DNA from: Erythrobacter sp. YJ-T3-07
GTDB lineage: Bacteria > Pseudomonadota > Alphaproteobacteria > Sphingomonadales > Sphingomonadaceae
Assembly: GCF_015999305.1 (NCBI RefSeq)
Contig: NZ_JAEAGP010000001.1
Location: forward strand, 868,001 to 932,000
Length of the DNA: 64,000 nucleotides
Direction of reading: 5' to 3'
Shown: positions 6,015-35,097 of the stretch, in pieces
How the letters are laid out: every line of letters begins with the position of its first letter
Position numbering within the stretch: position 1 is the stretch's first letter
The notes under the pieces: generated by a model
Told to the model about the DNA's origin: nothing
Databases searched by the model: none
Seen by the model: only the letters and a program-made list of their open reading frames with translations
Made by a program: the position numbers and the translations under genes

Positions 6015-6371
6015 AAGTCGTTCGGCGCCGATGATCACCTCGCTGACAGGTGACGCTACTCGAGACGGGCGATACCTTAGATCGCATCTATGATCGTGGA
6101 TGGAGAGGAGCCCAATCTTGTTCACATCGCACCGTAATCGGGCTGAACGAATGGCAGGTTCAGGGAAGAGCTACTCGGACAGTGAATGACCGAGAATGGG
6201 GCGCGAAGCAGACACACAGGGTTTGTTGCTATTCTTTACGCTACTAGGAGCTTACGGCGGGCAGAGTTTGATGTCGCAAATGGCATCCGCGCTAGGTCTT
6301 AACGTGCGTGCACGGCTTCTCAGCCGTTGGGAGTGACGTGATCCGCGAACATGGCTTGGCACATGCGGATG
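6015..6371. repeat. Intergenic region with a degenerate copy of the dispersed repeat
   Basis: No supported gene. Positions 6185-6205 differ at only two positions from the word AATGACCGAAATTGGGGCGCG found at about 60 kb, so this looks like a decayed copy of the intergenic repeat. The genes on the two sides converge here: the plus-strand helicase part and the minus-strand mobile-element block. Confidence 0.5.
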
Positions 6372-6413
6372 CAAAAAAAGGGGGGCGGGGCGGCCACCGT
6401 AGCTGGCCGCCCC
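6372..6413 (-). terminator. Rho-independent terminator for the minus-strand operon
   Basis: The perfect 10-bp stem GGGGCGGCCA (6387-6396) and TGGCCGCCCC (6404-6413) has a 7-nt loop. Read on the minus strand it is followed, after a short C-rich stretch, by a run of seven T (A-run at 6373-6379 on plus). It sits just past the end of the 6424-7251 gene. Confidence 0.85.
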
Positions 6414-6423
6414 AAGTATCGTT

Positions 6424-7251
6424 TCAATCGCCACCGATGTCACGATCGGCGAACGCGAGCTGCATCAGTCGCTCGCTCAACGCCCGCGCGCCCTGCCGGT
6501 AGGCAAGCCCGCCCCAGTCCGGCCAGCGGTCGATCCGCTCGTGGAGCCAGAACAGCATCCGGTCGCGCGCGTAGTCGTCCGCGAACGTGATGGACCACAA
6601 GACCCGCGTCAGCGGGATGTTCGGTCCGAGGCCCACCCCGGCCAGCACGATCGCAGGCTGCCCCGCGATGTCTTGGCGGCCGAACCGGTATTGCAGGTGC
6701 AGGATCGCACGCTCCTGAGCCTCGATCAGGCGATTGCGTTCGTCCTGGTCCGGCGTGCTCGCTAGACCGTGGAACGATTTGAGCGTGGGCAGCCCGATCG
6801 CGAGCGGCGCCGCGTTGGGGCTACGGGTGGAGGCGAGCATCAGCAGTACCGCGTGGCCCTCGGGGGACAGCTCGGCGTTCTGATCCGCTACCGTTTGCGG
6901 CATGAGCATCTTCAGGCCGGCGAGCCAGCTCAGGTAGTGCCGGCTCCGGTCCCAACTGCCGAACAGGTCGAGCGCGCGTTCCTCGGTGTGGATCACGCGC
7001 CGATCGAGCGAAACCAGCGTGGCGAGCATAAACTCGAGCTCCTCGTTGCGGATATCGTCGCGCGGGATCGGTGCCATTCCAAGCCGCGAGACCCAGAAGT
7101 ATTCGCGGACGCTGGGCCACCGCTGGCCCGTGTGGTCGGTCAGCGGCGGCACACCGTCGAGTTCGCCCTGGGCGACGAGCCAGTAGCCCCAGGGCAGGTT
7201 GGGATTGAACCGGTCGGAGTAGGGGATCTCGTCCCAGTCGCGCGCGCTCAC
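6424..7251 (-). CDS. Conserved hypothetical protein of the mobile element
   Basis: I do not recognise this 275-aa protein. It is rich in Trp and Arg (PWGYWLVAQGE, REYFWVSRLG), predicted soluble and largely helical, with no signal peptide, no membrane segment and no nucleotide-binding motif that I can see. Its start overlaps the stop of the upstream 228-aa gene by 4 nt, so they are co-translated. A strong terminator follows its stop. The position within the conjugation block, in the same orientation as the relaxase, suggests a maintenance or transfer-associated cargo gene. Confidence 0.75.
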   Translation of the reverse strand: MSARDWDEIPYSDRFNPNLPWGYWLVAQGELDGVPPLTDHTGQRWPSVREYFWVSRLGMAPIPRDDIRNEELEFMLATLVSLDRRVIHTEERALDLFGSWDRSRHYLSWLAGLKMLMPQTVADQNAELSPEGHAVLLMLASTRSPNAAPLAIGLPTLKSFHGLASTPDQDERNRLIEAQERAILHLQYRFGRQDIAGQPAIVLAGVGLGPNIPLTRVLWSITFADDYARDRMLFWLHERIDRWPDWGGLAYRQGARALSERLMQLAFADRDIGGD

Positions 7252-7934
7252 CGGCGGCGCTCCGGATCGAGACCGACCGGCGGCGGGGATGCCGGATCGT
7301 GCTGGGGGTCGCTCTCATGCTCGCCATCCACGGTCGCCCTGAGTTGCCGGGCGAGCCTGCAGGTCTGTTCGTAGACATAGGCGAGGTCGCGATAGACGCG
7401 GCCGTTCTCGGCGCCAAGGTCGTTCGGATTGACTCGACGACCGGGGACCAGATCGTGGTTCCGGTCGCACTGGAACCCGAACCACCAGAGCGGTTGGTGG
7501 CTGCTATGACCGTCATCGCCATCCTCGCTCCGGCCGGGGCGTTTCCGAGCAGCCGCAATCGGATGGCAAATGGTGATCTCCGCAGGCCCGTCCTCGCAGG
7601 GCGCCGCGTAGTCGAGGCCGCCGTGCGGGCTGATGCCAAGCGCACTCGGCACGGCGTCGACCTGGAAGCCGAACAGGGGATGATCCTCGCCCACTCCGAT
7701 ATAGCCTCCCAGCACCCCGTCCTGCCGCCGTAGAATGGTGCAGGCGAGACCGGTGGAGGCATCGACCCAGGCGAGCTTGTCCGGTTCGTGCTGCCACGGT
7801 CCGTCGCCCGAAGGATGGCGTGCGGGGATGTGGAACACCTGCGTCGCTTCGATCTGCGTGCTCGCGATGGGGTAGGTTCTGGTCTTGCCGACCGGCACGA
7901 GCGCCTGACTGGTTGTGGTCTTCTTTTTCGGCAT
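7248..7934 (-). CDS. Conserved hypothetical protein of the mobile element
   Basis: A 228-aa protein with no family that I can name. The N-terminus is a lysine/threonine-rich tail (MPKKKTTTSQ). The middle is rich in Gly, Pro, His and Trp (DYAAPCEDGPAEITICHP, PLWWFGFQCDRNHD), and the C-terminus is charged and disordered. It is co-translated with the downstream gene through a 4-nt overlap. Its start lies only 24 nt after a minus-strand terminator hairpin, so a promoter must sit inside or very near that hairpin, or the terminator is leaky. Confidence 0.72.
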   Translation of the reverse strand: MPKKKTTTSQALVPVGKTRTYPIASTQIEATQVFHIPARHPSGDGPWQHEPDKLAWVDASTGLACTILRRQDGVLGGYIGVGEDHPLFGFQVDAVPSALGISPHGGLDYAAPCEDGPAEITICHPIAAARKRPGRSEDGDDGHSSHQPLWWFGFQCDRNHDLVPGRRVNPNDLGAENGRVYRDLAYVYEQTCRLARQLRATVDGEHESDPQHDPASPPPVGLDPERRR

Positions 7935-11580: not shown

Positions 11581-11796
11581 TTATCGGAAAAGATCGGCGG
11601 TTTCCTCACTCGACCGAGAGCTTGCTGCGCAGCGAAGGCAGCGAATTGCGCTTCGTCGATCTTGGCGTGCCGCAGCGACGGGCAGGAGCCGACGGCGATA
11701 GGAAGCAAAGCGGGCAAAGAGGATAATCGTGCGAGCTCGATCGTCGTATTTTACGGCGAGTTGGATCCCCAGGATGAGGAGGATGATTGCGGTCAT
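11581..11796 (-). CDS. Possible small membrane protein coupled to the relaxase gene
   Basis: A 71-codon frame starts on the ATGA that overlaps the relaxase stop by 4 nt, with GAAAG as a weak ribosome site. The first 15 residues (MTAIILLILGIQLAV) could form a membrane helix; the remainder is Arg-rich and without recognisable features. The coupling favours it being expressed, but the composition after residue 30 looks non-coding. The alternative is that it is a chance frame. Confidence 0.3.
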   Translation of the reverse strand: MTAIILLILGIQLAVKYDDRARTIILFARFASYRRRLLPVAAARQDRRSAIRCLRCAASSRSSEETADLFR

Positions 11797-14402
11797 CTTT
11801 CGATACCGTCCGGACTGGGATGACCAGGATGGCGCGGCGGTTCGGGGGGCTTCTGATCCGTCCTGTCGGCAGAACGAGAGATCCCGGCTTTAGTGCGGGA
11901 AGACTTGGCGGATGCCAGCTCAGGAACAGCGCTTTGCGAAGGTATGGTCGCGGGTTTCATTGGCGACCGTTTGCCTTTGGCGGTGGCGATATTGGTCCGC
12001 TCGTAGGCGTGCATCTGACGCGCGATGGTCTTTGCGAGCGCCGGGTCATTGTTCTGCAACGCCAGCGTTTGGCTCCGCTCTCCAGGCCGCGCGTTTTCGT
12101 CATACGTAAACCTGTCCGGCCTTGCCCGTGCGACAGCGATCAGGCGCTGGAAAGTCGGATCGGACCGCTGAGCCTTCCAGAAGGCTGCTGCCCATGAAGC
12201 GTTGTCTCCCGCAACATGGAGTTCGCCCTCCTCGATCGAGGCGGCTCCAGCGACGATTGCAGATGCAATCCATCGCCGACGCTCGATCTGGATAGCCTCA
12301 ATCGCCGCAAGATCGCGTTGGATAGCAGGGTCGAGAAGACAATGGGGTTTGTCCTTGAAGGTCTCGACCAGAACGGGATCATCGAGGAAGCGCCAATGAA
12401 GCCCCTCATGGGACGCACGATAGCGCGATGGTGCCAACCACAGCGTGTCGTGGTCGATTTCGTTGGCTAGGGTGCGCCTGGTTTCTAGCACCGGGTCGAC
12501 CGCGTTCGGGGTCAGACTGGAAGCCTGCATGTCTAGGACATAATCCGTGACAAGTTTGCCGGCATGCAACAGACGACCGGGTTGGGCGAAGACGCGACTG
12601 CGCTCGCCGCACCGGCGGCGTTCGCCGTGAGCGCTCGTCCGTTTCTCTTTGCGATCATCGTAGGTGTCGTGAAAGGCGCGACTCGAGGCCACAACGCTGC
12701 GGATCAAACCTGCGCGGACCCCTAGAACGTGCGCGATAGCGAGTTTCCTCAACGGTCCTTTTTCCAGCGCAACACCCAGTTCGGCAGCGATTCTGGCCAG
12801 TCCTCTTCGAACTTTCTGCGCCGAAGCGATGCGTAGGCGCCTGAAGCGATACCGTGCGAGCTTGATCGCATCGATCCGTGCCCTGCGTTTTTGCGAGACA
12901 ATCTCGATCGTCCGCAGACGCTCGATAAAGGCGAGGTTCTCGCCATACCAGAACTTGCGGGCGTCCCCCGTTGCCTCGATCCTGTAGCGATCTTCGAGTT
13001 CGCGGCGCTCCTCGGCTTCGCGGCGCGCTTTTGCCGGTGAGGATGCGCCTGCAGGCGGTCCCCAGAGCAGCGCCAGCGTATCCCCTTCCTCTCCGGGGAA
13101 CACGCGTGCGTCCCTGAAGGGCTTCGACAAGAACTTCTCCAGCGTCTTGACCTGAGCCACTTCCCGTTCGTGGGACCGGCGACGCTGAGCCCGCCGCTCG
13201 TTGACGTCGTCGCCTGTCTCGACGTCCCTCATCCTGCGATAGAAATCCCCGTTGTGCTTTTCGAGATGATCGGCGAGGTCCTTGCACTCCTCGATCTCTG
13301 CCCGTCGGTCGGCGAAGCGATCACGCTCTTCTTCGGTCAGCTTCTCGAACCGCGGCATCACGAACTTGCGAACCGCGAGATCGGGAGCGGCGGGCTGGTA
13401 TCCGCCTTCGAGACGGTTGCCCAATTTCTTCAGCGCCGCATTGCCGTAGGCCTTGGTGGCCGCGATGGACTGCCCTTGCGCATGCTGCCCGGCTTCAGGA
13501 AGATAGCCGTTCGCAACAATCCGCGCACCGCTCTGTCCAGCGACGTATTTCAGCCCGACCCGCGCAAGGCTTTCATGCACCTGTGCCGCGGTATTTGACT
13601 TCAGTATACGAGGCTTGGCCAGGACTTGGACCGCCCGTTCCACTTCCCATTCCTCGCCGGACTGCGCGATATGCGCGGCGTAATTATCCCTCTTCCACGC
13701 CTTGTGGGCCTTCTGGGCTGCGACGATCTCGGAACGACCGAGGATCTTGCCATTCTCGTCCGCGACCCTGATGTCCGAGTAAGTGTGATAAACCCCGGTT
13801 CGATCCGCAACGAACCGGCGATTGGGTTCCGGCTCGAGATCCAGGTCGCGCTCGATGATCGCCATGGCGATCTGGCTTGCTTCTTTCCACCAGTCCTGAC
13901 CGAACATAACCGCTCGGTCTTGTTCCGGTAGAAAACTGACCACCAGACCATGCATATGATCGTTGTCGGTGTCGCGATGATCGGCCCAGATAGAAGGGCA
14001 GTCTGCCACGCCCAGAACCCGGCGAACGACCGCCCGGACATGCTCGAGTTGCTCCGGCGTCAGATGTTCATCTTCGCGGCTGCTGACCGCGATATGCCAA
14101 AAGCGCTTCAATCCGGCTCGCGCGCCGTAGATTGCTATCTCCCGCGATTGGTCTTCCGGATCCTCTGAGCTGAGGTTGTAGGCATGCCGCCCTTCTATCC
14201 GGTGCCCCGCGGCGCTGTCTGTGTTCACATAGTCGCCGACCGGTTTGACCTGCTCCATCACCGCAATGTCCTCGGCGCTCAACTGGATGTCGAAGATGTA
14301 TCGCGCTCGCGAGAGGGACGTCGAGAAAGCGAGGTCCTGCTTCAGCTTCGGGCTGGCAACGCCGTCGAGACCGCTATCGTATCGCCAGATATTGATGACC
14401 AT
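11793..14402 (-). CDS. MOBP-type relaxase
   Basis: Relaxases nick one strand at oriT, stay bound to its 5' end and pilot it through the conjugation channel. The 869-aa protein carries HIAVSSREDEHLTPEQ and, near residues 141-151, HRDTDNDHMHGLVV, the three-histidine motif III of VirD2/MobA-type enzymes. The nicking Tyr may lie in the YVNTDS segment upstream, which I cannot confirm. The remaining 700 residues are basic and helical, of the length typical of large MOBP relaxases, without a visible helicase or primase motif. The start is set at 14402: GGGAGAGG lies 5 nt upstream and the ATG shares one base with the stop of the MobC-like gene (TGATG). A longer frame to 14474 is less likely. Confidence 0.85.
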   Translation of the reverse strand: MVINIWRYDSGLDGVASPKLKQDLAFSTSLSRARYIFDIQLSAEDIAVMEQVKPVGDYVNTDSAAGHRIEGRHAYNLSSEDPEDQSREIAIYGARAGLKRFWHIAVSSREDEHLTPEQLEHVRAVVRRVLGVADCPSIWADHRDTDNDHMHGLVVSFLPEQDRAVMFGQDWWKEASQIAMAIIERDLDLEPEPNRRFVADRTGVYHTYSDIRVADENGKILGRSEIVAAQKAHKAWKRDNYAAHIAQSGEEWEVERAVQVLAKPRILKSNTAAQVHESLARVGLKYVAGQSGARIVANGYLPEAGQHAQGQSIAATKAYGNAALKKLGNRLEGGYQPAAPDLAVRKFVMPRFEKLTEEERDRFADRRAEIEECKDLADHLEKHNGDFYRRMRDVETGDDVNERRAQRRRSHEREVAQVKTLEKFLSKPFRDARVFPGEEGDTLALLWGPPAGASSPAKARREAEERRELEDRYRIEATGDARKFWYGENLAFIERLRTIEIVSQKRRARIDAIKLARYRFRRLRIASAQKVRRGLARIAAELGVALEKGPLRKLAIAHVLGVRAGLIRSVVASSRAFHDTYDDRKEKRTSAHGERRRCGERSRVFAQPGRLLHAGKLVTDYVLDMQASSLTPNAVDPVLETRRTLANEIDHDTLWLAPSRYRASHEGLHWRFLDDPVLVETFKDKPHCLLDPAIQRDLAAIEAIQIERRRWIASAIVAGAASIEEGELHVAGDNASWAAAFWKAQRSDPTFQRLIAVARARPDRFTYDENARPGERSQTLALQNNDPALAKTIARQMHAYERTNIATAKGKRSPMKPATIPSQSAVPELASAKSSRTKAGISRSADRTDQKPPEPPRHPGHPSPDGIER

Positions 14403-14887
14403 CAGCGCCTCTCCCGCTTCTCGACCATCGGAACAGCGCGGGACTGTTCCTGCCGCTGCGCGATCAGGCGGCACAGTTCGCGCGTCTCGTCGAGCAAGGC
14501 ATTTTGGGTCGGTCTGGTCTCTTCGATCAGCGCAACCAGTTCCTCGTGTCGCTGCTTTGCGAGCAAGCCTAGAAACGCGTACTCTGGGTCATCGTCGTCG
14601 ATATCCCGTGCGCGCGCCAAGTCATCGTCCAGTCGCGTTTCGAGCGTGGTAAGCGCATCGCCGATGCGCTTCTGCCGGGCCGCCATTGCCAGAAGTCTCG
14701 CGCCAACATCGACCGCCGCGTCGCGCAAGCCCGAAGGATGGAAAATCCGATCCCGGCAGTATTGTCCGACCTCTTTGTCGGGCACTTCGCGCTGGATCTG
14801 CGACTTCTGTTCCGCGGTCACATAGAACTTGATATAGGGGCGCTTCGGACGCGTCTTTGACGTGGCTGAACCCTTGCTATTTGCCAT
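14402..14887 (-). CDS. MobC-like relaxosome accessory protein
   Basis: A 161-aa basic protein whose N-terminal part (RPYIKFYVTAEQKSQIQREV...VGQYCRDRIF) matches the ribbon-helix-helix-like region of mobilisation accessory proteins such as MobC. These bind oriT and help the relaxase open the DNA. The C-terminal half is helical, with a possible coiled coil. I choose the ATG at 14887 because AGAAGG is 7 nt upstream; an ATG 17 codons earlier lacks one. The stop overlaps the relaxase start by one base. The candidate oriT lies about 75 bp before the start, the usual arrangement. Confidence 0.78.
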   Translation of the reverse strand: MANSKGSATSKTRPKRPYIKFYVTAEQKSQIQREVPDKEVGQYCRDRIFHPSGLRDAAVDVGARLLAMAARQKRIGDALTTLETRLDDDLARARDIDDDDPEYAFLGLLAKQRHEELVALIEETRPTQNALLDETRELCRLIAQRQEQSRAVPMVEKRERR

Positions 14888-20694: not shown

Positions 20695-20789
20695 ACCGCT
20701 AATGCGCGGTAAATAGCTGGAGGTGCGCGGAACGGTGCCGGGCCTTCCGCAATCGTCAGCCACACCGGACATCTTGTAAGTCACCGAAT

Positions 20790-20804
20790 GTTCTCATAAT
20801 GTTC
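20790..20804 (+). promoter_or_regulatory. LexA (SOS) box, alphaproteobacterial type
   Basis: GTTC-TCATAAT-GTTC exactly matches the direct-repeat SOS box GTTC-N7-GTTC used by alphaproteobacterial LexA. It lies 4 nt before the ATG of the 77-aa gene that leads into umuD and umuC, so it controls the mutasome operon. Confidence 0.88.
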
Positions 20805-20808
20805 CGGC

Positions 20809-21042
20809 ATGACCGATGATTCGACGCAGCCGTCCGGCAACCCCGATCAGCTTCGAACTGACATGATCCGCGAAGTCCGAACCGCATACGATCGCTGTCA
20901 AACTGCGGAGCGTGACCGCGATAGCTTTGCCCGCTTGATCGAACTGCGCGATGCGACCTGGGGCCTTCTGACGCTGCTCGAACGCGAGCTACCCGGCGAA
21001 GAGAACACCCTGCGCCAGCAACGCGCGTTCGCTTTCGACTGA
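20809..21042 (+). CDS. Small SOS-controlled protein at the head of the umuDC operon
   Basis: A 77-aa acidic, helical protein (LRTDMIREVRTAYDRCQTAERDRDSF, LLTLLERELPGEENTL) with no family that I recognise. The start codon is only 4 nt after the LexA box. Either the transcript is leaderless or a later in-frame ATG at 20863 (the Met of LRTDMIREV) is used. It is followed 11 nt later by umuD, so it is the first gene of the damage-induced operon and may be a mutasome accessory. Confidence 0.6.
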   Translation: MTDDSTQPSGNPDQLRTDMIREVRTAYDRCQTAERDRDSFARLIELRDATWGLLTLLERELPGEENTLRQQRAFAFD

Positions 21043-21053
21043 GCCCAGTCCCC

Positions 21054-21479
21054 GTGCCCGCCATTCGCCTAACCCAGTTGGACTGGACCGCAGTCCCGCG
21101 CGAGATGCCGCTATTGCTGGTCAGCACTCCGGCCGGTTTCCCATCGCCCGCGCAGGACGACATGGAGGAGCCGATCGATCTGGGTGCCTGGCTCATCGAG
21201 AAGCCGGCCGCCTCCTATGTCATGCGGGTCGATGGTCATTCGATGGAAGGCGCGGGTATTGCCGACGGTGACCTGATCGTTGTCAGCCGCGCGGAGCGGC
21301 CGGTGCCGGGCCGGATCGTGGTTGCGCTGGTCCATGGCGAACGCACGCTGAAGCGGTTGCGCAAGATGGATGACCGGCTTTGGCTGGTGCCCGAGGCCGA
21401 AGGCTATCCGCACACATTGGTGGACGAGTATGTCGAGATCTGGGGTGTGGTCGTCGGCCTCGCCCGCCGCTACCCATGA
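21054..21479 (+). CDS. umuD: UmuD-like S24 self-cleaving protein
   Basis: UmuD cleaves itself in response to RecA filaments and then activates the UmuC polymerase. The 141-aa protein shows the cleavage region at A27-G28 (TPAGFPSPA), the catalytic Ser63 in [10 protein letters not shown] and the Lys100 in ERTLKRL. The length matches UmuD. It starts on GTG at 21054 and its stop overlaps umuC through ATGA. Regulation comes from the LexA box upstream of the operon. Confidence 0.93.
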
Positions 21480-22756
21480 CCGGCGCCATCGCGCTTCAGG
21501 ACGCGAACAACTTCTACGTCAGCTGCGAGCGCGCATTCGATCCTTCGCTGCGCGGCGTCCCCGCGATCGTGCTGTCGAACAACGACGGCTGCGCCATCGC
21601 CCGGTCCGCCGAAGCCAAGGCGCTCGGCATCCGCATGGGCGACCCCATCCATCTGATCCGCAATAAGGTGAAGGCGCACGGTATCGCGGTGCGCTCGTCC
21701 AACTACGCGCTCTACGGCGACATGCAACGGCGCATCCTCGCCGCGATCGAGCCGTTCGCGCGCGACGTGGAGATCTACTCGATCGATGAAAACTTCCTCG
21801 ACCTTGCCGGATTCGAGGATCGCGATCTGGTCGCCCACTGCCAGGCGCTGCGTGAGCGGGTCGAGCAGTGGACGACGATCCCGACCTGTGTCGGTATCGG
21901 TCCGACCAAGACTCTGGCGAAGCTGGGCAACGCCGCGGCGAAGAAAAACCCTATCTTCGGCGGGGTCGCCGACATGCGCGATCCCGCCATCGCACGCTGG
22001 GTCTTGGACCGGTTCCCGATTGGGGATGTCTGGGGTGTCGGTCGCGCTACTACAGGCAAGCTGGCCGCGCTCGGAATCCATACCGCCGGCCAGCTTCGCG
22101 ACATGCAACTTCGGCAGGCTCGCGGGCTCGGTACAGTCGTGCTGGGGCGACTCGTCGCTGAACTTAACGGCGTCCCTGCGCAAGTGCTGGAAGTGCTCGA
22201 ACCGCAGCGCAAGGGCATGGCGGTGACCCGCTCGTTCGGCACGCCAATCACGACACTTGAGGTGTTGATGGGCGCGATTGCGCAATACGCCATGCGAGCG
22301 GGAGAGAAGCTGCGCCAGCATGGCTTGGTCGCCGGACGACTGACCGTGTTCTTCCACACCAACCGCCATCGTCCAGACCGCCCGCAATACAACGCCAGCC
22401 GCACGCTGACCCTACATCCGATGAGCGCAGACGGCTTCCTGCTGATCGCGGCAGCCCGGCGCGGTGCGGAGGCCGCATGGCGTGATGGGTTCGCCTATAC
22501 GAAAGCCGGGATCATGCTTGAACACCTTGAGCGCGCTGATCTTCGACCGCGCACGCTGTTCGAATGTGCCGACGGTATCGAGCGCCGCGAACGGCTTATG
22601 GATGCGCTCGATGCCATCAACACGCGCTACGGAAAGTTCACGGTTGTGCCCGGCGTGCAGGGATTCAGGCGCGGTTGGACGACCCGGACTGATATGAAAT
22701 CGCCAGCTTGGACAACGCGGATCGATGAGGTGCCGCGGGTGGTGGCGTGGCAATAA
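21476..22756 (+). CDS. umuC: UmuC, Y-family translesion DNA polymerase
   Basis: UmuC is the catalytic subunit of DNA polymerase V, which copies past lesions at the price of mutations. The 426-aa protein has the metal-binding motif [16 protein letters not shown], the conserved [19 protein letters not shown] block, [10 protein letters not shown] with the catalytic Asp-Glu, and [18 protein letters not shown]. The little-finger region and the C-terminal DUF4113 end are complete. The start is the ATG at 21476 within the ATGA overlap with umuD. An adjacent lexA or recA is not seen; the operon resembles mobile umuDC cassettes. Confidence 0.95.
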
Positions 22757-23062: not shown

Positions 23063-26000
23063 ATGAGCCGAACAGAACAGAGAGGAGCAGGAGGGCCGCA
23101 TGGCGCGGGTGGGGCCGCGGCTGGGGGAGGCCTCAACTTCCAGGCGGCCATCACCGCGATCTGCTTGGTCTACATGCTCCGCGAAAGGCCCCTCAAATGG
23201 CTCGAGGGCCTCGTGCACGACCTGATCGTCCTCGTCGAATCAGAGACAGGCAGGGGCGGTGACGACATCCGCCTCCGTCTGGCCGGGGGCGAGACCGTGG
23301 AGATCCAGGCCAAGAAGGGTCTACGCGCAACCGAGGAACTGTGGAACGCGTTGCTGGCACTCGCAGAGGCGGTGGTGGTGAACGACAACATCTTCGGCGT
23401 CCTCGCGGTCTGCCCGGAAAGCAGCGGCACGATACGCAAGGCCTTACGCCGTGACATGGTGGCGATCGGGGAGGGAAGCACTGATGGACTGTCCCCGACC
23501 GGACGAAAGCTCCTCGCGCGTCTCGATGCGCATGGGTTGGACGCAAAGATAGTCTGCTCGCGGTTGCGCATCCTGGTGATCGACGCGCTGACGACTAGCG
23601 GTGGCGGCGTCCAGGCGGCGCGGTCGGAGCTGGCCGGCATCTTCATAGCGCAGAACGTCGATACAGCTTGGGCACTCCTTTGCCGCGAGGCCCACGACAT
23701 GATCGAGCGCCGCGGACGGGTTGATCGCCGACGCGCCACGACGGTGTTGGAATCCCATCCCTTGCGCTTAATTACCCACCCGCAGCAAGGGACGAATGTG
23801 CCTACTGGCTTCGGCACCTTCGCCGATATCCTTGGCGGGGTCGCCACTACACCACATAGCCCAGTTTCGTCGCTGGGGGCCAGCCTGCTCGCAGAGGCGG
23901 CCGCTAAACTGGCGGAGCGGATCCGCAGAGGTCGATACTTCGTGGGCTTTCCCACCCAGGAGGAGGCAAGGCGGCTCGCGGCGGGCCTTATCACCGGAGA
24001 ATTCTCGCAATGCACGCCAGGGACGAGGGCCCGGCTCTTAGCCAGCTGCGCCAGATGGCTGAGCCAAGCCGAGAACGAAGGCGACGTCGAAGGACTGATT
24101 GAGCTCAGCCTCTCCATCGAGGAAACGCAGGAGGCGGCGATCGCGCGGGCTTTCCTCGCGGCACGCTCGGACTGGAAGGACGGGATGAGCGCTCTCGCTG
24201 GCCGCCGAACGCCCGAAGCTCGCGCCGCAGCCCTCCAGATTCACCTCAACGCACATGACCCAGCGGAAACGCTCGCGTGGGTCGATCAGGCCGGCCTCCT
24301 GCCGGACGAGCTCGATCCCGACGGTCGCCAGGTGCTGCTTAACTGCCACGCCGCCGCAGAGAGCTGGGAACGGGCCCTTGGCATATCGGGCGTCCTCACC
24401 GCGGAGGATCTGGAGCGAACCCCCTCGCTATACGGGACGACGGCGCTGGTCCTGCTGGCCAATTCGGTGGACCCGGATCTGCGCGCCTTCATCGGCAGGG
24501 GCATTCCTCCAGATTCCCGCGGATTTCCACTCGAGGACACGACCGAAGCGATCGAGCGGCGCCGAAGGGCTGCCGGGCTCTTCAGGGCATCGGGGAGCGT
24601 AGCCGGTGATCTGGGCCGCGACGCGATCGCATCCCACCACCGGATGATGGCGCTGTGGCTCGAACTGCGCGACGAAGAAGCATATTCCGAAGCGATGAGG
24701 TCGCTGGAGGAAATCTTCTCGTCGGGCGAGGACTTCGTCCCCGTCCTACCTTTAGCGCTCGCTTTCGGTGTAACGGTCAACCGCGAAGCAGTGGCAAGGG
24801 AGCTAGCACGCCGGAGCGCACTCGATCCACAGGGCAGTCCCGACTTAGCGCTCGCGCACTTGGCGATGGCCCAGTCCGAAGCAAACGCCGAGCAGCAGCT
24901 CCACTACCTCGTGACGCATGCGGATGTGATGAGGCCCCATCTCACACCCGAGGGAATGCTCGATCTGGAGCTCCAGCTGTTGGTCGCTACGGGAAGGCAG
25001 GAGCAGGCACGGGACCGGCTGACCCAAGACGGCGGGATACTGCCCGACCAAAGGCGATCCGAGATTCGGCTCCTGCTCGATCGGGGCCAAGAAGGTCTGA
25101 CGACCCGCGATTTCGAGGAGGCCTACGCGAGATCGCCCGATACCGCCCATCTCAAGCAGCTGGTAGACCACCTCGCACGGCAGGATTTTTCACAACGCTT
25201 GGCGGACCTCGGCATCGAGCTGGTCGTCCGAACCCACAGTCGCCGCGAGGCTGAAATCCTGATCTCCATCTTAGCCTCGCACGGCCGCCACGATTGCGTC
25301 GATGCCGTCCTCGATGCCATCCCCGACCTGGTTGCCGGATCGACTATCCTGCAAACCGCAAAGGGCTGGTCGCTCTTCCGAGAAGGCGCCCTCGCTGGGG
25401 CCGAGGCGATGCTGGCGAAAGGTGACGACGACGATAGGAATAGCAGGGCGCTGCGCACGAACATCCTCATCGCCTCGGGCCGTTGGGCGGAGCTCGAGGC
25501 GATGACGGAAGCTCATTGGAGAGACCGAGAGAACCGCGATCCGGGGGAGCGGATCGAAGCTGCCCAGCTCGCCGTCCAGACAGGACAACATGAAATCGCA
25601 CTGAACCTGGCACGAGCCGCAGTCGAGGGTGCGCCGGACGACCCCCACCTGCTCCTCGCGGCATACGCCGTCGCCATCGCCCTCGGTAGGGAAGCCGAGC
25701 TTGATGCCTTCAAATGGTTCGAGAGAGCGGCCGACCTTTCCGGGGAGGATGGCCCGGTCCAGAAGACCTCGGTCAACGCCATCGTCGAACAGGCGCCGGA
25801 TTGGAACGCGCACGTCGAGCATGCCACCGAGCTCTGGCGTCGCGGCAAGGCGCCTCTGGCATCAGTCGCAGAGGCGCTTCGTCAACCCATGCTGGAGCTG
25901 CTCCTTTCGCCGATACTCGGTAACAGGGACAAGATAGAACCCCGCCGGCGCGGTTTGGTCTCGGCCTTCAGTGGTGCGCGCGCCGAACCGCAACCGAGAG

Positions 26001-27538
26001 GAAAGGGTCCGATCGCACTCGACGCAAGCGCTCTCGTGACTCTGGCCGCGCTGGGGCGTCTCGAAGACATCCTCGCCCTCCCGGAAGGCGTCCTACTGCC
26101 CCACGCGACGCTCACGTGGCTGTTCATAGAGAGGCAGGAACTAACCTTCCACCAACCCAGCCGTATCGCCTCCGCACACGAGGCGCTGCACCTTCTCACG
26201 GAAGGCAGACTCCACCGCTTCGCGCCGGAAAGCCCTATCGACCCCGCGCTCGCGGATCTGGTCGGTCGCGACCTCGCGGCGATGCTCGTAGAGGCCGCCG
26301 CATCGGAGGGCGACGCGCCGCCTCGCTTCGTGGTGCGGTCGGCTCCCGTCGCGAAGGTAGGCTCTTTCCTCGAGGAGACGGCGGACCTGTCGGATCACCA
26401 TGGGTTGCTGCGAAGCTGCCACGCGCTCCTCGACGCGCTGGTCAGGGAAGGCGCAGTGGAAAAGGACCAGTCAGAGCGGGCAGCGCGATACCTGTCGCGC
26501 AACGAGGAACAATGGCCCGGCGAGGCGCCGATACCGCGTGGAGCTGATCTCTATCTCGACGACCTCACCGTGTCCTACCTCACGACGACGGGGTTGCTGG
26601 ACCGGCTCGCTGTGGCAGGTTTCCGGGCCCATGTATCCGAAGCCGAGATCGCGACCTGGAGGGCGTTGGTTGGTTCCGAAAGGCTATCGCGGAGAACCGA
26701 TGAGTTCATTGAGGGAATCCGCTCCGCGATCGCCAAGGGTATCGCAGAAGGTGGCGTGGCCCTCGACGCGCGGGAGGAAGGCGATCCCGAGAAGGCGTAT
26801 CCGGCCCATGCGTTCCTGCGCCTCGCCGCGAAGGCCGGGGTGCTGGTCAGCGACGACCGATTCGTGAACGCGCATCCACGGATCGAGCATGACGGACATG
26901 AGGCACCCATCTGGACCAGCCTTAATCTCATCGAGCACCTCGCGCCGACGGAAGGGCCCGACCGGCGCAAGGTCTGGACGGATCGCACCGCGCTGCGGCA
27001 GTTCGGATACGTCCACATCCCCACCGACAGGGACGAGATCGAATACCATCTGTCGGAGAGCTACCTCCACGAAGAAGACCTGGTCGAAAGTCCCGGTATG
27101 CGCGCCCTGCGCGAGAACATCCGCTCGGGGCAGCAGCGGGGCTGGATGGTCCTGATGGACGAGAGTCCATGGATATTCCGTTCACTCGCGGACTTCAGCG
27201 GGGCAATTCAGTCGCAATGGGTGGACAAGGTCCCCGACGATCTCGCGCGAGCGCGCTCACTTTGGCTGCTCGACTGCGCCGATCTGCGGAACTGGGCGGG
27301 ATGCCTCGATGGCGACCCCTCGAACATCGCCCGATATGGCTCGGCACTCGTGCTGTCCCGCACGCTGATGAACAGAATCAACGACGCCGAGGGTGAGGCA
27401 CTCGAACGGATGGATGCGTGGCTTGAGGACGTGGTCGAGCACCTCGCGACCCAGGAGCCGGCAACGCATCGCTGGATGATCGACATGCTGGGTCAGAGCC
27501 TGCTCGCGTCAGCCACAGGCAACTCGGCAGATGGCTAG
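23063..27538 (+). CDS. Giant protein: N-terminal PD-(D/E)XK-like domain, helical repeats, C-terminal PIN-like domain
   Basis: A 1491-aa protein of no family that I can name. Residues 22-90 look like a restriction-nuclease fold: GGLNFQAAI, a helix, then GDDIRLRL with D67/D68 and VEIQAKKG with E80, Q82 and K84, close to the QxK form seen in Cap4-type nucleases. From about 280 to 960 the sequence is helical, with TPR-like spacing of Ala, Leu and Glu. Near residue 984 a strand ALDASALVTLAALGRLEDIL starts a PIN-like domain, with LYLDDLTVSYL and LVSDDRF (near 1260) supplying further Asp residues. No Walker motif was found. The stop overlaps the next gene by 8 nt. Two predicted nuclease domains joined by repeats suggest an immune sensor-effector; this is inference. 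Confidence 0.8.
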   Translation: MSRTEQRGAGGPHGAGGAAAGGGLNFQAAITAICLVYMLRERPLKWLEGLVHDLIVLVESETGRGGDDIRLRLAGGETVEIQAKKGLRATEELWNALLALAEAVVVNDNIFGVLAVCPESSGTIRKALRRDMVAIGEGSTDGLSPTGRKLLARLDAHGLDAKIVCSRLRILVIDALTTSGGGVQAARSELAGIFIAQNVDTAWALLCREAHDMIERRGRVDRRRATTVLESHPLRLITHPQQGTNVPTGFGTFADILGGVATTPHSPVSSLGASLLAEAAAKLAERIRRGRYFVGFPTQEEARRLAAGLITGEFSQCTPGTRARLLASCARWLSQAENEGDVEGLIELSLSIEETQEAAIARAFLAARSDWKDGMSALAGRRTPEARAAALQIHLNAHDPAETLAWVDQAGLLPDELDPDGRQVLLNCHAAAESWERALGISGVLTAEDLERTPSLYGTTALVLLANSVDPDLRAFIGRGIPPDSRGFPLEDTTEAIERRRRAAGLFRASGSVAGDLGRDAIASHHRMMALWLELRDEEAYSEAMRSLEEIFSSGEDFVPVLPLALAFGVTVNREAVARELARRSALDPQGSPDLALAHLAMAQSEANAEQQLHYLVTHADVMRPHLTPEGMLDLELQLLVATGRQEQARDRLTQDGGILPDQRRSEIRLLLDRGQEGLTTRDFEEAYARSPDTAHLKQLVDHLARQDFSQRLADLGIELVVRTHSRREAEILISILASHGRHDCVDAVLDAIPDLVAGSTILQTAKGWSLFREGALAGAEAMLAKGDDDDRNSRALRTNILIASGRWAELEAMTEAHWRDRENRDPGERIEAAQLAVQTGQHEIALNLARAAVEGAPDDPHLLLAAYAVAIALGREAELDAFKWFERAADLSGEDGPVQKTSVNAIVEQAPDWNAHVEHATELWRRGKAPLASVAEALRQPMLELLLSPILGNRDKIEPRRRGLVSAFSGARAEPQPRGKGPIALDASALVTLAALGRLEDILALPEGVLLPHATLTWLFIERQELTFHQPSRIASAHEALHLLTEGRLHRFAPESPIDPALADLVGRDLAAMLVEAAASEGDAPPRFVVRSAPVAKVGSFLEETADLSDHHGLLRSCHALLDALVREGAVEKDQSERAARYLSRNEEQWPGEAPIPRGADLYLDDLTVSYLTTTGLLDRLAVAGFRAHVSEAEIATWRALVGSERLSRRTDEFIEGIRSAIAKGIAEGGVALDAREEGDPEKAYPAHAFLRLAAKAGVLVSDDRFVNAHPRIEHDGHEAPIWTSLNLIEHLAPTEGPDRRKVWTDRTALRQFGYVHIPTDRDEIEYHLSESYLHEEDLVESPGMRALRENIRSGQQRGWMVLMDESPWIFRSLADFSGAIQSQWVDKVPDDLARARSLWLLDCADLRNWAGCLDGDPSNIARYGSALVLSRTLMNRINDAEGEALERMDAWLEDVVEHLATQEPATHRWMIDMLGQSLLASATGNSADG

Positions 27539-29444
27539 GCGCGTGACGATCGATCCGGCGACGATGCTCTCGCTCTATCCGAAGTTCCTGCAGCTAAGGC
27601 TCCTCGGCGACGAAAGTCTCCGCGATGCGCTGGGCGTCGAGATCGGGGAAACGATCACGATCGAAGGCGCGGTCTCCTTCGACCGGACGCTGCTGAACGC
27701 CGCAATCGAAGGCGCCTATGCGGGCGAGGGGGACGGCGCCAGCGTTCAAGACATGGACGGAGAGGAGTGGTCGCTCTCACTCGACAGCACGCGATCGCCA
27801 CCCGCGGTCCGACTTTCCAAGGAAGAGTCGGCCTACCTACTCGTGGGGCTCGCCTGGCTGCTTCCGAAGGCCAGCGACCGTCTACACCACCTCGAGGGTC
27901 TGCGACGGGAGCTGGCCATCGGAGTCGCCGCGCTCGCGCCGTGGCGTGAGATCCTCGCTCGGCGCACCCTCAACCTCCCAGAGATCGACGCGCTGCAGGA
28001 GGTGATCGATAGATCGCCGATGTCCCGCGCCAGGAAGATCGCGGCCGACGTCACGAAGGGGAAAGGGGATCTAGAGACGTTCGCTCCAGGAAGCGCGGAG
28101 AGCTACGCCCCCTTCGTAGGAAGCGACCCAGCGAGCGATCTGGCATCGTTCCGCGATGGCATGCTGCCCGGCATCGTGCGGGCGTGGCTCGACTGGGACC
28201 AGTTCGAGGGCGCGAAGATGGCGCTCCTCGGCTGCGGGCAGGGTTCGCTCGCCCCTGCGACCGAATTGCGGGACCTACCGGGGGACCATCTCGTGCGGCT
28301 GGCGGAGTGGGGCCTCGAGGGCGCGGACCTCCTCTCGAAAGTGGCCATCATCGAGGTGGGGCTTCCCAGCATACGCCGAGTTCCGGACCTCACGGGTCCG
28401 CTGTCTAGGCTCGTCGAGCAGATCCGAGACATGGAGCCGAAGTCCGAGGGATCGAGGGCGAAGCTCCTGATGGCGAGCCTCATCACCGTAGAGGCGGAGC
28501 TTTCGCGCACGCAGGCGCTCGCGCATCTGCCCCCCTTTCAGCGCCGCATCGCCGCCCTCGCGCACGCGTCGCTGTTCGACAGGACAGCCCACCACCGCGT
28601 GGACACCGATGGTTTCGCGAAATGGGCGCTGGAGGCGCGCGGACGGCATTTCTACCTGCAGGAGCTGGTAGACCTGCGGAGCGAGCCCCGCTGGCATCCC
28701 GAGGGGGCGACCGCGGAGCGTCTTGATGCCGAGCTCATGGGACGGATACGGAACGCCGCGTGGGCGAACACGGATTCGATCGCGGGCACGGAACTTGAAG
28801 AACTGCTCATGGGCTCCGGGGGGCGGAGCATCTCGTCGCGGGTGCAGTTCCCCGGCAGCTTCCTCCCGGGACCGGCGGAAGGAGCGTACGATGCCGCGCC
28901 CTCACCACCCCAGGAGTTCGAGGAAATACTGGACCAGTCGCTCGCCGACCGCGAACTCACGCCGAGAAGCGTCATCGCGCTAGTCAACCTGAGCGCAATG
29001 TTCCGGATCGGCGACGAGCGCATCGACCGCGCGGTCGAACTGGTCCGCGCCGCCGGCTACCACTTCTCGGCCGACGTCGGAACGGACGAGCGGGACCTCC
29101 TCATCGACGGTCTGGCCAAGGTCGCGGCGGGGACCCGGCGAGCGGACCTCGCGCGGGATGTCAGGATAATGCTCCGGCGGTTGCGCGTAGACGGGTCCGC
29201 ACCACTTCCGGCCACGAGGGAGTTCCTCACCTGCGTGACCGCCGCGGCAGCGCACGGGAATCTCGCAGAGTGGGCCGACTTCGTGGGCGACTGCGCGATC
29301 GAGGCGGCCAACTCGATCGCGAGCGAGGACGAGGCGCGGCTGCTCCACTTCGATCTCGAGCGTCTCTGTCAGTGCGAACCCCTCGTCCGGGCACGGGGAG
29401 GTGGCCGCGCCCTTGCGACACTTCAGCTCACGCTGAAGGAGTGA
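27531..29444 (+). CDS. Large helical partner protein of unknown function
   Basis: A 637-aa protein translated from an 8-nt overlap with the giant gene, so the two form one unit. It is almost wholly helical (LSKEESAYLLVGLAWLLPKASD, RELTPRSVIALVNLSAMFRIGDERIDRAVELVRAAGYHF), Asp- and Ala-rich, without signal peptide, membrane segment, nucleotide-binding or metal motif that I can see. A scaffold, sensor or immunity role for the giant nuclease-like protein is possible but unproven. Codon use is strongly GC-rich and matches its partner. Confidence 0.75.
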   Translation: MARRVTIDPATMLSLYPKFLQLRLLGDESLRDALGVEIGETITIEGAVSFDRTLLNAAIEGAYAGEGDGASVQDMDGEEWSLSLDSTRSPPAVRLSKEESAYLLVGLAWLLPKASDRLHHLEGLRRELAIGVAALAPWREILARRTLNLPEIDALQEVIDRSPMSRARKIAADVTKGKGDLETFAPGSAESYAPFVGSDPASDLASFRDGMLPGIVRAWLDWDQFEGAKMALLGCGQGSLAPATELRDLPGDHLVRLAEWGLEGADLLSKVAIIEVGLPSIRRVPDLTGPLSRLVEQIRDMEPKSEGSRAKLLMASLITVEAELSRTQALAHLPPFQRRIAALAHASLFDRTAHHRVDTDGFAKWALEARGRHFYLQELVDLRSEPRWHPEGATAERLDAELMGRIRNAAWANTDSIAGTELEELLMGSGGRSISSRVQFPGSFLPGPAEGAYDAAPSPPQEFEEILDQSLADRELTPRSVIALVNLSAMFRIGDERIDRAVELVRAAGYHFSADVGTDERDLLIDGLAKVAAGTRRADLARDVRIMLRRLRVDGSAPLPATREFLTCVTAAAAHGNLAEWADFVGDCAIEAANSIASEDEARLLHFDLERLCQCEPLVRARGGGRALATLQLTLKE

Positions 29445-30678: not shown

Positions 30679-31500
30679 TCAGGGCCGCGTGTCATAAAGC
30701 GCAAAGTTCAGCTCGAAGAGCAGCTCCTCGCGTTCGCACCCGGTGACCTCGCAGAACTCAAGGATCTCGATGAAGGGATTGCTCCCAGGGTCGCGCTCGT
30801 AGAGCCGGGCCACCCATCGTCCGAAATGATCGTCGGCGCAGCCGAGCTGGTGATGATCGAGGATTTCGAGCTGCTTCTTCAACTCCGCCGATGTGATCTC
30901 GAACGCCTCCTCGACATCGTCGACCGGCAGCTGATTGCTGCCATGATCCCGCATGCGGGCGGCGAGTTCGATCGCGAAGGTGCGTGTCGCCCTGGGTAGC
31001 CGTGCGAGCTTGCCGATGAAATCGGCGATGCCCTGGATATCGTCGGGGCAGTTGCGCAGCTCGTCGACCTTGAGCGCGTCGGCCAGCGCGTCGAGCGTCA
31101 CCGGATAGCTCGGCGTCGCGTCCCGCGTCCGGTCCTTGTAGCGCTCGAGGAACTCATGCTCGGCCCGCTGGAAGCGGGACTCGTGCCGCCGCTTGTAGTC
31201 GCGCAGCAGCTCGGGCGGGAATGCCGCCTCGCGGTGGGGATCGTCGATGATGTCATGGTGCGGCCCGCAAACGAGGAACAGGTTGGCGAACGCTCGCCTT
31301 TGCTCCTCGTCGAGCGCGGCGTCAAAGCGCGCACCGCCGGCATTTGCGGCATGGATATGGGCGATCTTGCCGAGCATCGTACCGCCGTCATCGACCAGCT
31401 CGTTGCGGCAATCAGGCATGGCGCATTGATTGCCGCTCCATGCGAACAGCTTCTTGATTGTTCCGGGCGTCGGCGGGAGGCGCCCATCTGTCTTGGTCAT
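30679..31500 (-). CDS. HNH endonuclease-like protein
   Basis: HNH proteins cut DNA with a metal held in a beta-beta-alpha fold. Residues 20-90 contain WSGNQCAMPDCRNELV (zinc Cys pair), KIAHIHAANAGGARFD with the HNH histidine region, and NLFLVCGPHHDIIDDP with Asn, Cys and the paired His. The remaining 180 residues are helical and could form a regulatory or partner-binding domain. The start at 31500 (MTKTDGRLPP) fits the HNH boundary. The frame runs 209 codons further without a stop, but that part crosses the TGTCCGG repeats and reads as non-coding. It is the last gene of a minus-strand run with the AlbA_2 and DUF4062 genes. Confidence 0.8.
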   Translation of the reverse strand: MTKTDGRLPPTPGTIKKLFAWSGNQCAMPDCRNELVDDGGTMLGKIAHIHAANAGGARFDAALDEEQRRAFANLFLVCGPHHDIIDDPHREAAFPPELLRDYKRRHESRFQRAEHEFLERYKDRTRDATPSYPVTLDALADALKVDELRNCPDDIQGIADFIGKLARLPRATRTFAIELAARMRDHGSNQLPVDDVEEAFEITSAELKKQLEILDHHQLGCADDHFGRWVARLYERDPGSNPFIEILEFCEVTGCEREELLFELNFALYDTRP

Positions 31501-31529
31501 CGGACCGCTATATAGGAGATGGTCGCCAG

Positions 31530-31820
31530 TGTCCGGGAAATGTCCGGCCGGGCCGCCAATAATCAAGCGCAGGCGATGGAAATCTCGGAAAATCAGTGCG
31601 CTAAGCGTTTGCGTTGCTGCCCGGCGTTCCTCGCGCAATGTCCGGCAATGTCCGGCCCGGCCAGTTTGGCCTCCGGGGCGGACATGGCGGCCGCGACTGG
31701 CGCCATGTCCGGCTTTTCGTTCGATCAAGCGGGTCTGCGCGTGAAATGTCCTGATTTCCGCGGAAAAGGCGACGGCCCCCGCCAGCCGGATGTGTCCGAC
31801 CATGTCCGGCAAATGTCCGG
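31530..31820. repeat. Cluster of TGTCCGG repeats, many at one-helical-turn spacing
   Basis: TGTCCGG occurs exactly at 31530, 31541, 31639, 31649, 31706, 31803 and 31814, with near copies TGTCCTG at 31747 and TGTCCGA at 31793. Pairs are 10-11 bp apart, one DNA turn, so a bound protein would contact the same face. The cluster fills the gap between the HNH gene start and the AlbA_2 gene stop and may be an operator or iteron-like element. Confidence 0.75.
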
Positions 31821-33221
31821 CTATGTATCGGCGAGCCGCCGATACACCGTTGCGACACTTTGCCCCTCCTTGCGCACAAACCGGAACTTCTCGAGCTCGA
31901 TTAGATCTCGCCGCGCCTGCCTGGGCGATATCTCCGGCGCGAAGCGGGCGATATAGTCGGCCACCGCAATCGCTTCGCCCGGCTGCAGGGCTCCCAGAAA
32001 CGCCCTCTGGCGCTTGTTCAGGTGGGTTGCGGCTTTCTCCGGCGAAGAGAGGGCCGCATATAGCGTGAGCGTCACGCCGCCCTGATCCTGGGTCCAGACG
32101 GGCGGCGGTGCGCCGATCTGCTTGCACGCCTCCGCAATCCGCTCGGTGCCCCGGCCGGTCCGGTCCATAACGCGGTTCAGGTAGAAAACATGGGCAATAT
32201 CTGGATTGACCGGAAAGGACTGATGCTTGCGCGGCAGGTCCTTGATCGAAATCTCCGGCGGCAGTTTGCCCGTGTTCCAGAACTCGATCCGGTCAGGATA
32301 GACCGACACCTTCACGCCGCCTGAGAAGGACTCGTAGCTGCGATGCGCGAGAGCATTGACGATGCCCTCGCGCAGCGGGAAGTCGTGATAGGCTGGCTGC
32401 TCTTCCCGCTCCAAGGAGCCTTCGATAAAGCGCGCTCTGGTCCTCTTATAAGGCTGCAGCGCCGCGAAGAGCCGCTCCACGATCTCGATCGCCGACCCTT
32501 CGAACCATTTGTAATTCTCATAGGTGTCGTCAGTCTTGTCGCCGCGGAACTCGAGAAGCTGCACGCGAGTCTGCGGCAACCGCTGGCTCGGCTTCTTGGC
32601 GAAGAGGACGTCGCAGGCATTGGTGAAGCCCTTGGGTCGCCGCAGCGACAGCTCGTCGAGCATCTCCAGTTCGGTCTCAGCGTCGAGCAGGGCCAGCCGT
32701 CCGGCCTTCTCGGCGGACTCCCTGACCCGGCGGACCAGCGCAAGATCGAGGTCGCGCTCCCCCATGCCGGTCGATATCCGGCGTTCCCACCGCAAGCTTG
32801 CCTGCTCGGTCCCGGCGAACATCACGCGAATATCTTCGGCCGCCGCGGGCCTCGCGCCAGCGCCTTCGCGCACCCAGACGGCGCCGGCGACGACATATGG
32901 GCGGTCGCTTCCAGGCGGCACCTCAATCGTCAGCACCGTGCCCTCCTTGACCATGTCCACGGACACCGAGAAGAGCGCCGATGGCGAGATTTCAGCCTGG
33001 AGCGCGGCTTCGAGCAACCGGGCTGCGTCCAAGGTCAGATCGCCCTGGAGCGGCTTACCCTTCTCATCGACCGCCGCAAACACGATGCCGCCGTCGCCGG
33101 AGTTCAGCAGGCTGCAGACCTCCCGGGCGATCATCTGGCAATCCTCCGGATTCGCGATGAAACTGGTCGTCCCATTCTCGCCCTTGGCGAGGCGCTGGCT
33201 GATAGAAGAACTTGCCATCAC
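31821..33221 (-). CDS. AlbA_2 (Schlafen-like) domain protein with GHKL-type ATP-binding region
   Basis: The 466-aa protein begins with an AlbA_2 domain (ANPEDCQMIAREVCSLLNSGDGGIVFAAVDE, residues 21-55), found in Schlafen-like nucleases and in transcriptional regulators. Near residues 275-320 LREGIVNALAHRSYESFSGGVKVSV and IEFWNTGKLP match the N- and G1-box regions of the HATPase_c_4 module. GRGTERIAEACK near 357 and a C-terminal winged helix (ISPRQARRDLIELEKF) complete a known architecture. Its start overlaps the stop of the DUF4062 gene by 4 nt, so they are coupled. Function is unknown; a defence role is suggested by the partner. Confidence 0.82.
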   Translation of the reverse strand: MMASSSISQRLAKGENGTTSFIANPEDCQMIAREVCSLLNSGDGGIVFAAVDEKGKPLQGDLTLDAARLLEAALQAEISPSALFSVSVDMVKEGTVLTIEVPPGSDRPYVVAGAVWVREGAGARPAAAEDIRVMFAGTEQASLRWERRISTGMGERDLDLALVRRVRESAEKAGRLALLDAETELEMLDELSLRRPKGFTNACDVLFAKKPSQRLPQTRVQLLEFRGDKTDDTYENYKWFEGSAIEIVERLFAALQPYKRTRARFIEGSLEREEQPAYHDFPLREGIVNALAHRSYESFSGGVKVSVYPDRIEFWNTGKLPPEISIKDLPRKHQSFPVNPDIAHVFYLNRVMDRTGRGTERIAEACKQIGAPPPVWTQDQGGVTLTLYAALSSPEKAATHLNKRQRAFLGALQPGEAIAVADYIARFAPEISPRQARRDLIELEKFRFVRKEGQSVATVYRRLADT

Positions 33222-33936: not shown

Positions 33937-35097
33937 TCAACCAGCTTCCAGCAGCGCGTCGAAGTCCGCCGCCTTGACGATTTCGCCGACCAGGCCGGTA
34001 AGCCGCGGCTCCTTGCGCTGGGCGCGCAGGAAATCTTCGGCCGTCCGCTTGTCGACATAGAGGGCCGCGCAATAGGCGGCGAGGACGCCCAGATAGCCAT
34101 CGTTGAGGTCGCTTCCGGGACGGACCTGCCGCACTTGCCCATGAGCGCGGAGCGCGTCGCCGATGACCCGGCTCGGGAGAACGTCCATCGGCACAGACTT
34201 GAGGGCCTCGAACGAACGGCCGGTCTCCGACGCAACGACGCGCAACTGATTCCTGAACATCGCCAGCCGGCTGAGATCGGCCAGGACGCACTCGTCGCGG
34301 ATTTCGGCCTCGTCCACGCCTTGGTCCACCAACGTGGACTCCAGCAGCTCGCGCACCGTAGTGCCCGGCGGCGGCATCATTGCGACGACCCGCGCCACAA
34401 AATCATCGGCCATGAGGCGCGCCCGCGCGCTGTCGTTCCCCGTGCTCTGCAACGCCTGCTGCAAAGCCTTGGCGTGGATCCGGTCGAGCTGCGCGCCCAT
34501 CTCGGCCCGAGAATTGATCGCGCCTTTGGCCAGTTCTCCGATCGTGCGGCTGTCGTCGAACGTCCGCAGCGGTCCAAGCGCTGCGACCTGGTCGGTTTGG
34601 CCCTTTCGCGATCGCAGTATCGGCCGGACTGCCTCCCAGACCCAGGCTTCCTCGCCGATCGCCTGAGTGCCGGTGCCCGTCTTCAGCAGCAGCTCGCGCG
34701 CTCGGTCCCGAACCGAGATCAGATCGCGCAGCCCTTCGGAGGCTGCGGTCGCCTCCGCCGCCAGCACCTGCGCGATCGATCCGAGGCCGGCGTCATCCTT
34801 GGGCAGACGCAGGAAGGCGACCAACGGCAAGTCCTGAAGGAAGCGAACGCGCGCGCGCGCGGCCGCATCATCCTCGCCGCCGAGCAGTTCCTCCAGATGA
34901 TGCCATGAGAGAAGCGGTATACGGCCCTGGTCGATCAGCTGGCCATGCAGATCGCGGGCTCGCTGCCGCCGATCGGCGTTGCTTCCCGACGCCGCGTCCA
35001 ACCATTTCGCCCAATGTGAGCTGTCGGGCGCAATGATCTTCGGTGCGATGATGGTCAAAGACAGCTTCCGTGAAGACAAACGACAGTCGATTGCCAT
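33937..35097 (-). CDS. PIN-like nuclease domain protein
   Basis: The 386-aa protein starts with a strand IIAPDSSHWAKWL whose Asp fits the first acidic residue of PIN domains. LLSWHHLEELL supplies a Glu, and near the C-terminus SDLNDGYLGVLAAYCAALYVDKRTAEDF gives the DxxD and D pattern of the PIN active site. The large helical insert (residues 90-330) is unusual. An ATG at 35097 has no ribosome site; a TTG at 35058 with GGAAG 6 nt upstream may be the true start. It lies 83 bases upstream of the DUF4062 gene in the same direction and could be part of that unit. Confidence 0.6.
   Translation of the reverse strand: MAIDCRLSSRKLSLTIIAPKIIAPDSSHWAKWLDAASGSNADRRQRARDLHGQLIDQGRIPLLSWHHLEELLGGEDDAAARARVRFLQDLPLVAFLRLPKDDAGLGSIAQVLAAEATAASEGLRDLISVRDRARELLLKTGTGTQAIGEEAWVWEAVRPILRSRKGQTDQVAALGPLRTFDDSRTIGELAKGAINSRAEMGAQLDRIHAKALQQALQSTGNDSARARLMADDFVARVVAMMPPPGTTVRELLESTLVDQGVDEAEIRDECVLADLSRLAMFRNQLRVVASETGRSFEALKSVPMDVLPSRVIGDALRAHGQVRQVRPGSDLNDGYLGVLAAYCAALYVDKRTAEDFLRAQRKEPRLTGLVGEIVKAADFDALLEAG

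Follow-up and report, generated by a model that had tools for sequence, protein, structure and literature searches.

An overlapping gene pair of Erythrobacter sp. YJ-T3-07 as a putative split form of the TPR-GreA/B-C-PIN conflict system

Gene pair and reading frames

The window analysed here, a stretch of 64,000 nucleotides (nt) from Erythrobacter sp. YJ-T3-07, contains two overlapping genes, A and B, which are read below as a split form of a previously predicted conflict system. Gene A (23063..27538, +) encodes 1491 amino acids (aa) with a predicted PD-(D/E)XK effector, a TPR-like region, an HTH, two PIN-like copies and a C-terminal region, and gene B (27531..29444, +) encodes a 637-aa partner whose homologs either come after A or extend the reading frame of A. 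The stop of A and the start of B overlap by 8 nt (27531..27538, +), with alternative start codons possible. Open-frame analysis gave the same frames, lengths and overlap as the two-gene unit of the initial annotation. The database copies begin at residue 38 of A (P0013) and residue 5 of B (P0001), and the start of A at 23063 is favoured since the NFQAA stretch at residues 25-29 is conserved.

The N-terminal nuclease and its exchange

Residues 1-240 of A (23063..23782, +) make up a predicted effector nuclease of the Cap4/DUF4297-like PD-(D/E)XK kind with E61, D67, D68, E80, Q82 and K84. The last five of these residues, on which the initial annotation had based a PD-(D/E)XK-like N-terminus, are all present in A and invariant in 11 of 11 nuclease-bearing A homologs, and with NACHT relatives added to the alignment D67, D68, Q82 and K84 were identical in 38/38 rows and E80 in 37/38. 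A confident structure model of the domain matches the nucleases of HerA-DUF, Avs3, Lamassu and Cap4, while other LmuA and DUF4297-HerA entries match lower, with scores down to 6.2. The model bears out the domain, and A has both the Cap4/DUF4297-like fold, by the model, and its catalytic residues. Sequence searches of the PDB with the nuclease gave weak matches only (8zue at E 0.8 and 0.22), the others being chance-like, and PF14130 matched one of 149 genomes and none of the frames of the own genome.

The same nuclease domain is carried by 27 proteins outside the A family (P0049-P0075), at 34-54% identity and with the same catalytic residues. All six of these that were scanned have a NACHT match C-terminal to the nuclease (four of the six under the Pfam cut-off), whereas A is without an NTPase, and neither PIN nor GreAB-C families were listed in the six at E<=0.01. 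The PADLOC candidate family PDC-M54A matches the nuclease of A (1.3e-7) and 3/3 NACHT relatives scanned. One effector thus appears on two unrelated sensor scaffolds. Among 15 scanned A homologs, HNH_2, Mrr_cat and DUF676 each occurred once as a differing effector, and the HNH domains in loci L009 and L010 had PADLOC PDC-M68A as best match, followed by CBASS HNH effectors. In a tree of 33 cores the effector kinds switch between branches, the kinds being partly assigned by eye and some nodes poorly supported. Judged from these sequences, the N-terminal effector is exchangeable among relatives.

TPR-like region, HTH and tandem PIN-like copies

The nuclease is followed by TPR-like helical repeats (23915..25762, +; residues about 285-900). 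No TPR family was found in the A protein of the window at E<=1 in Pfam bar Sel1 at 0.99; TPR_19 was found in 7/15 A homologs scanned, and the profile of this region (A1) matches PPR and other repeat chains, so the helical middle assigned to A at the outset holds. Downstream lies PF24407, HTH_upst_double_PIN (25781..25981, +; residues 907-973), at E 7.5e-18 and 65.1 bits against a cut-off of 27, and PF20698, PIN-TPR-GreABC, was matched by residues 986-1030 at E 8.2e-6 and 26.6 bits. Both families were matched by all 15 homologs scanned at E<=0.1.

The initial annotation had described a single C-terminal PIN-like domain with an Asp near 984 and an SDD near 1260. A PIN-like region is indeed present and the residues exist as D987 and S1263-D1265, but by profile the region consists of two tandem copies and the residues lie one in each. 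Copy 1 (26012..26533, +; residues 984-1157) has D987 and E1023 without SDD and is probably degenerate, and only copy 2 (26540..26962, +; residues 1160-1300) has, by sequence, the full acidic set D1166, E1195, D1264 and D1265. Residues 975-1157 and 1158-1300 aligned over 139 columns with a probability of 75% (hhalign, E 2.6e-5). Against the PIN of canonical single-chain members copy 1 aligned over 45 columns (53%, E 1.3e-4), and copy 2 gave a weak match (9%, E 0.0037). Across 33 aligned rows Asp was found at D987 in 29 and Glu at E1023 in 26, Asp at D1166 in 25 and Glu at E1195 in 24, and Asp at both D1264 and D1265 in all 33; 32/33 rows had Asp at D987, at D1166 or at both. In two divergent relatives, L038 and L039, the stretch between the halves is absent and there is just one PIN, which shows D and DD motifs; two copies are therefore probably the derived state. 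The active site may be a composite of both copies. A conserved C-terminal region (26963..27535, +; residues 1301-1491) completes A, its conserved columns including W1386, W1401, W1453, R1398 and W1411.

Gene B and its association with gene A

The partner had been thought to carry no known motif, which did not hold: residues 45-86 of B (27663..27788, +) match PF24388, Permuted_GreAB-C, at E 6.2e-7 and 29.4 bits, above the cut-off of 27. The GreAB-C assignment is taken from Pfam alone, since the profile comparisons given below did not confirm it. When 289 genomes from the class were searched with PF24388, two matches came up, the own genome and one under the cut-off in a 198-aa frame.

The association was followed in 16 other A loci, 8 from an initial homolog set and 8 being non-own PF24407 matches from the family and phylum samples. 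B accompanies A in 16/16, as the next, overlapping frame in nine and within a frame of 1928-2155 aa shared with A in seven. Since B either follows A or shares its frame in every locus, the window is taken to hold the split form. In 10/10 split pairs, the window included, start codons exist that give an overlap of 4, 8 or 11 nt, other starts being possible as well. The 8-nt overlap claimed earlier is thus borne out, and in 7/16 related loci there is one reading frame instead. BLAST with B of the window found the B part in ten loci (L004-L011, L035, L037) and weakly in L032 (8.5e-6); a profile including single-frame relatives found it in L032, L033 and L034, and a B-only profile matched L036 (2.4e-11), L039 (1.9e-10) and L038 (3.1e-6), mainly over the first 120-190 positions, so that only the first part of B is recognised in three of the 16. 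In the controls of the B-only profile the two NACHT proteins came out at 0.019 and 0.032, and no shuffled piece did better than 0.68.

Just upstream of the single-frame relatives, L037 has a tandem pair of frames, 1107 and 1104 aa long (1264-7914), and L038 one 1111-aa frame (3858-7193); an extra partner in this branch is possible. In Sphingopyxis sp. HIX (L004, 10001-14422) gene A is interrupted by a stop codon.

Distribution of the family is patchy. PF24407 matches 6/298 genomes of the taxonomic family and 4/398 in the phylum sample, the own genome included in both, and PF20698 matches 11/396 genomes of the order, nine above the cut-off. Of these 11, at least G518 and G1094 belong to the double-PIN kind. 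One scan of viral contigs gave 35 pattern matches, none of them a relative. At the DNA level 0/9 other genomes of the genus match the A-B stretch, in keeping with the accessory location first proposed.

Comparison with known systems

No named system with this architecture had been recognised initially, and this view had to be abandoned: with PF20698, PF24407 and PF24388 the pair corresponds to the TPR-GreA/B-C-PIN system. This kind of system is not new, and Pfam already has models for its split form with a double PIN. The system was predicted as a conflict system by Kaur et al. 2021, who in the passages concerned also predict an action on RNA polymerase (PMC8195603), and it is named TPR-GreA/B-PIN systems in the relevant part of PMC9503650. 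Shared with the system, as outlined in those passages, are a variable N-terminal effector (a restriction endonuclease, REase, among the published kinds), the TPR region, the PIN and, by the Pfam match, a GreAB-C-type motif; the variable effector is present in A as a REase fold and in relatives as other effectors. The HTH of the A family can be aligned with 85% (hhalign) to the segment that precedes the PIN of canonical members. In eight canonical members from the same order (L021-L028) the open frame is 1279-1367 aa long and GreAB-C comes ahead of the one PIN, whereas the window pair is two overlapping genes with two PIN-like copies and has its GreAB-C-type motif, "permuted" according to Pfam, in a separate downstream protein. 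The core on a single chain that characterises the system is accordingly not found in the window, being split in 9/16 of the related loci and one frame in 7/16.

The two proteins gave no Pfam match to an NTPase family at E<=1, in line with the initial annotation, and so none to the NACHT/STAND NTPase that marks Avs; membership of Avs was rejected. The contrast with Avs and other STAND systems is nevertheless softer than the initial annotation had it, since the nuclease occurs on NACHT proteins and its fold matches that of Avs3. CBASS, which has a SAVED sensor in the effector protein and a cyclase gene nearby, was also considered but is probably not the system here: at E<=1 neither protein matched a SAVED family, and the neighbour scan covered part of the surrounding genes. 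The sensors of Avs3, Cap4 (CBASS), Lamassu (LmuA) and HerA-DUF are STAND, SAVED, SMC-like and HerA modules, respectively. The nuclease fold of A matches these four by the model, and their sensor modules differ from the TPR, HTH, PIN and GreAB-C parts of the window pair. DS-3 and DS-5 of DefensePredictor, by their description in part of PMC13092281, have a PIN RNase in an anti-phage system, as is proposed for the pair, the PIN of DS-3 being divided between the ends of the protein according to the same passages. Among the listed matches in openly licensed literature neither an experimental test of the family nor a paper on the split, double-PIN form was found, and GreA is not mentioned in the parts covered of PMC7159879, PMC10853773 and PMC12419801.

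Proposed mechanism and alternatives

An immune, anti-invader role of the pair is likely, with phage probably as the target. In support are the Pfam families of a named system in both proteins, the match to defence nucleases, the swapping of effectors, the co-occurrence of A and B, the patchy distribution, and the resolvases, integrases and type I restriction-modification (R-M) genes among neighbours of relatives. On balance A and B probably form a two-tier nuclease immune complex, the split form of the TPR-GreA/B-C-PIN system, and with moderate confidence two working nucleases are expected in it. The TPR region and B would form a sensor or docking platform, and B, if its GreAB-C-like part acts as in GreA, would bring the complex to RNA polymerase transcribing invader DNA. 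As first tier, PIN copy 2 would cut the transcript at the polymerase. The second tier, set off by failure of the first or by oligomerisation, would be release of the N-terminal nuclease to cut DNA, with arrest of the infection or death of the cell as the outcome. Docking on RNA polymerase is tentative; this step comes from a published prediction, and no other part of the mechanism is weaker. A PIN site shared by D987/E1023 of copy 1 and D1264/D1265 of copy 2 is suggested by the 32/33 rows that keep Asp at D987 or D1166 and by the two single-PIN relatives. The complete chain is a long shot: B puts A on RNA polymerase at invader DNA, the transcript is cut at the shared PIN site, and an Avs/Lamassu-type nuclease then destroys the DNA. 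The gene pair, with relatives that are split or in one frame, would provide separable subunits for testing surveillance of RNA polymerase by an immune complex.

Several observations weigh against this interpretation. The PF20698 score in A is 1.2 bits under the curated cut-off of 27.8, and a six-frame search of the own genome gave no match to that family. The N-terminus of B aligned to GreA or canonical GreAB-C, plain or doubled, with a probability of at most 1.5% (hhalign), the permutation test giving 0.3% against doubled GreA-C and 0.8% against doubled canonical GreAB-C; the positive control, canonical GreAB-C against GreA, still gave 95% with at least one of the six GreA rows printed in the wrong frame. 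The defence-island signal was counted without a matched control region. Domain layout, co-occurrence, effector sharing and, by model, the nuclease fold were observed directly, and from them and the published prediction the immune role, PIN catalysis, RNA polymerase docking and order of action were inferred. The SDD motif missing from copy 1 and the replacement of D1166 in copy 2 by S, T, N or A in 8/33 rows also speak for an immune complex in which the N-terminal DNase is the only effector and the TPR, the HTH, dead PIN copies and B serve as sensor or regulator, as does the same nuclease on unrelated NACHT scaffolds. That arrangement is nonetheless unlikely, given D1264 and D1265 in every row and the single PIN with D and DD motifs retained by L038 and L039.

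A complex for housekeeping or mobile-element maintenance, processing DNA or RNA during transfer and not serving immunity, would fit the relaxase and coupling-protein genes of the window and the resolvases, integrases and single TrbI and CagX matches near relatives, but it is improbable, immune-type effectors being swapped at the N-terminus and the nuclease model matching defence nucleases. Least credible is a toxin-antitoxin-like pair in which A is a constitutively harmful nuclease kept inactive by B; the genes overlap and one partner has a nuclease, but B is large and downstream, and the two are one reading frame in 7/16 loci.

Genomic neighbourhood

Around the 16 loci, 118 neighbour open reading frames (>=130 aa, within about 6 kb, picked by length without overlap) included 5 resolvase, 4 phage integrase and 3 type I specificity matches. 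In the window, umuC was found at 21380-22756, beside the pair as first described, and the frame next to it (20759-21196, -) had no family match in the scan. The family scan further gave a type IV secretion system coupling protein (22-1578, +), a DEAD helicase (2864-5299) and a relaxase (11793-14474, -); with the relaxase and the coupling protein, the window may hold an element capable of mobilisation or conjugation. A Dam/HTH gene and SRAP are also present. An integration site at a tRNA-Ser (34692-34775, -, ARAGORN) was dropped, since the call is wholly contained in an open frame (33937-35097) and may be false. The frame at 30679-32127 (-) had no Pfam match at 0.001 as a whole, and its later part is HNH-like by eye (GNQCAMPDC...CGPHH). 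Near the pair, an AlbA_2 (Schlafen) protein with a RecG-C-like HATPase_c_4 (31821-33221, -) is possibly another defence or regulator gene.

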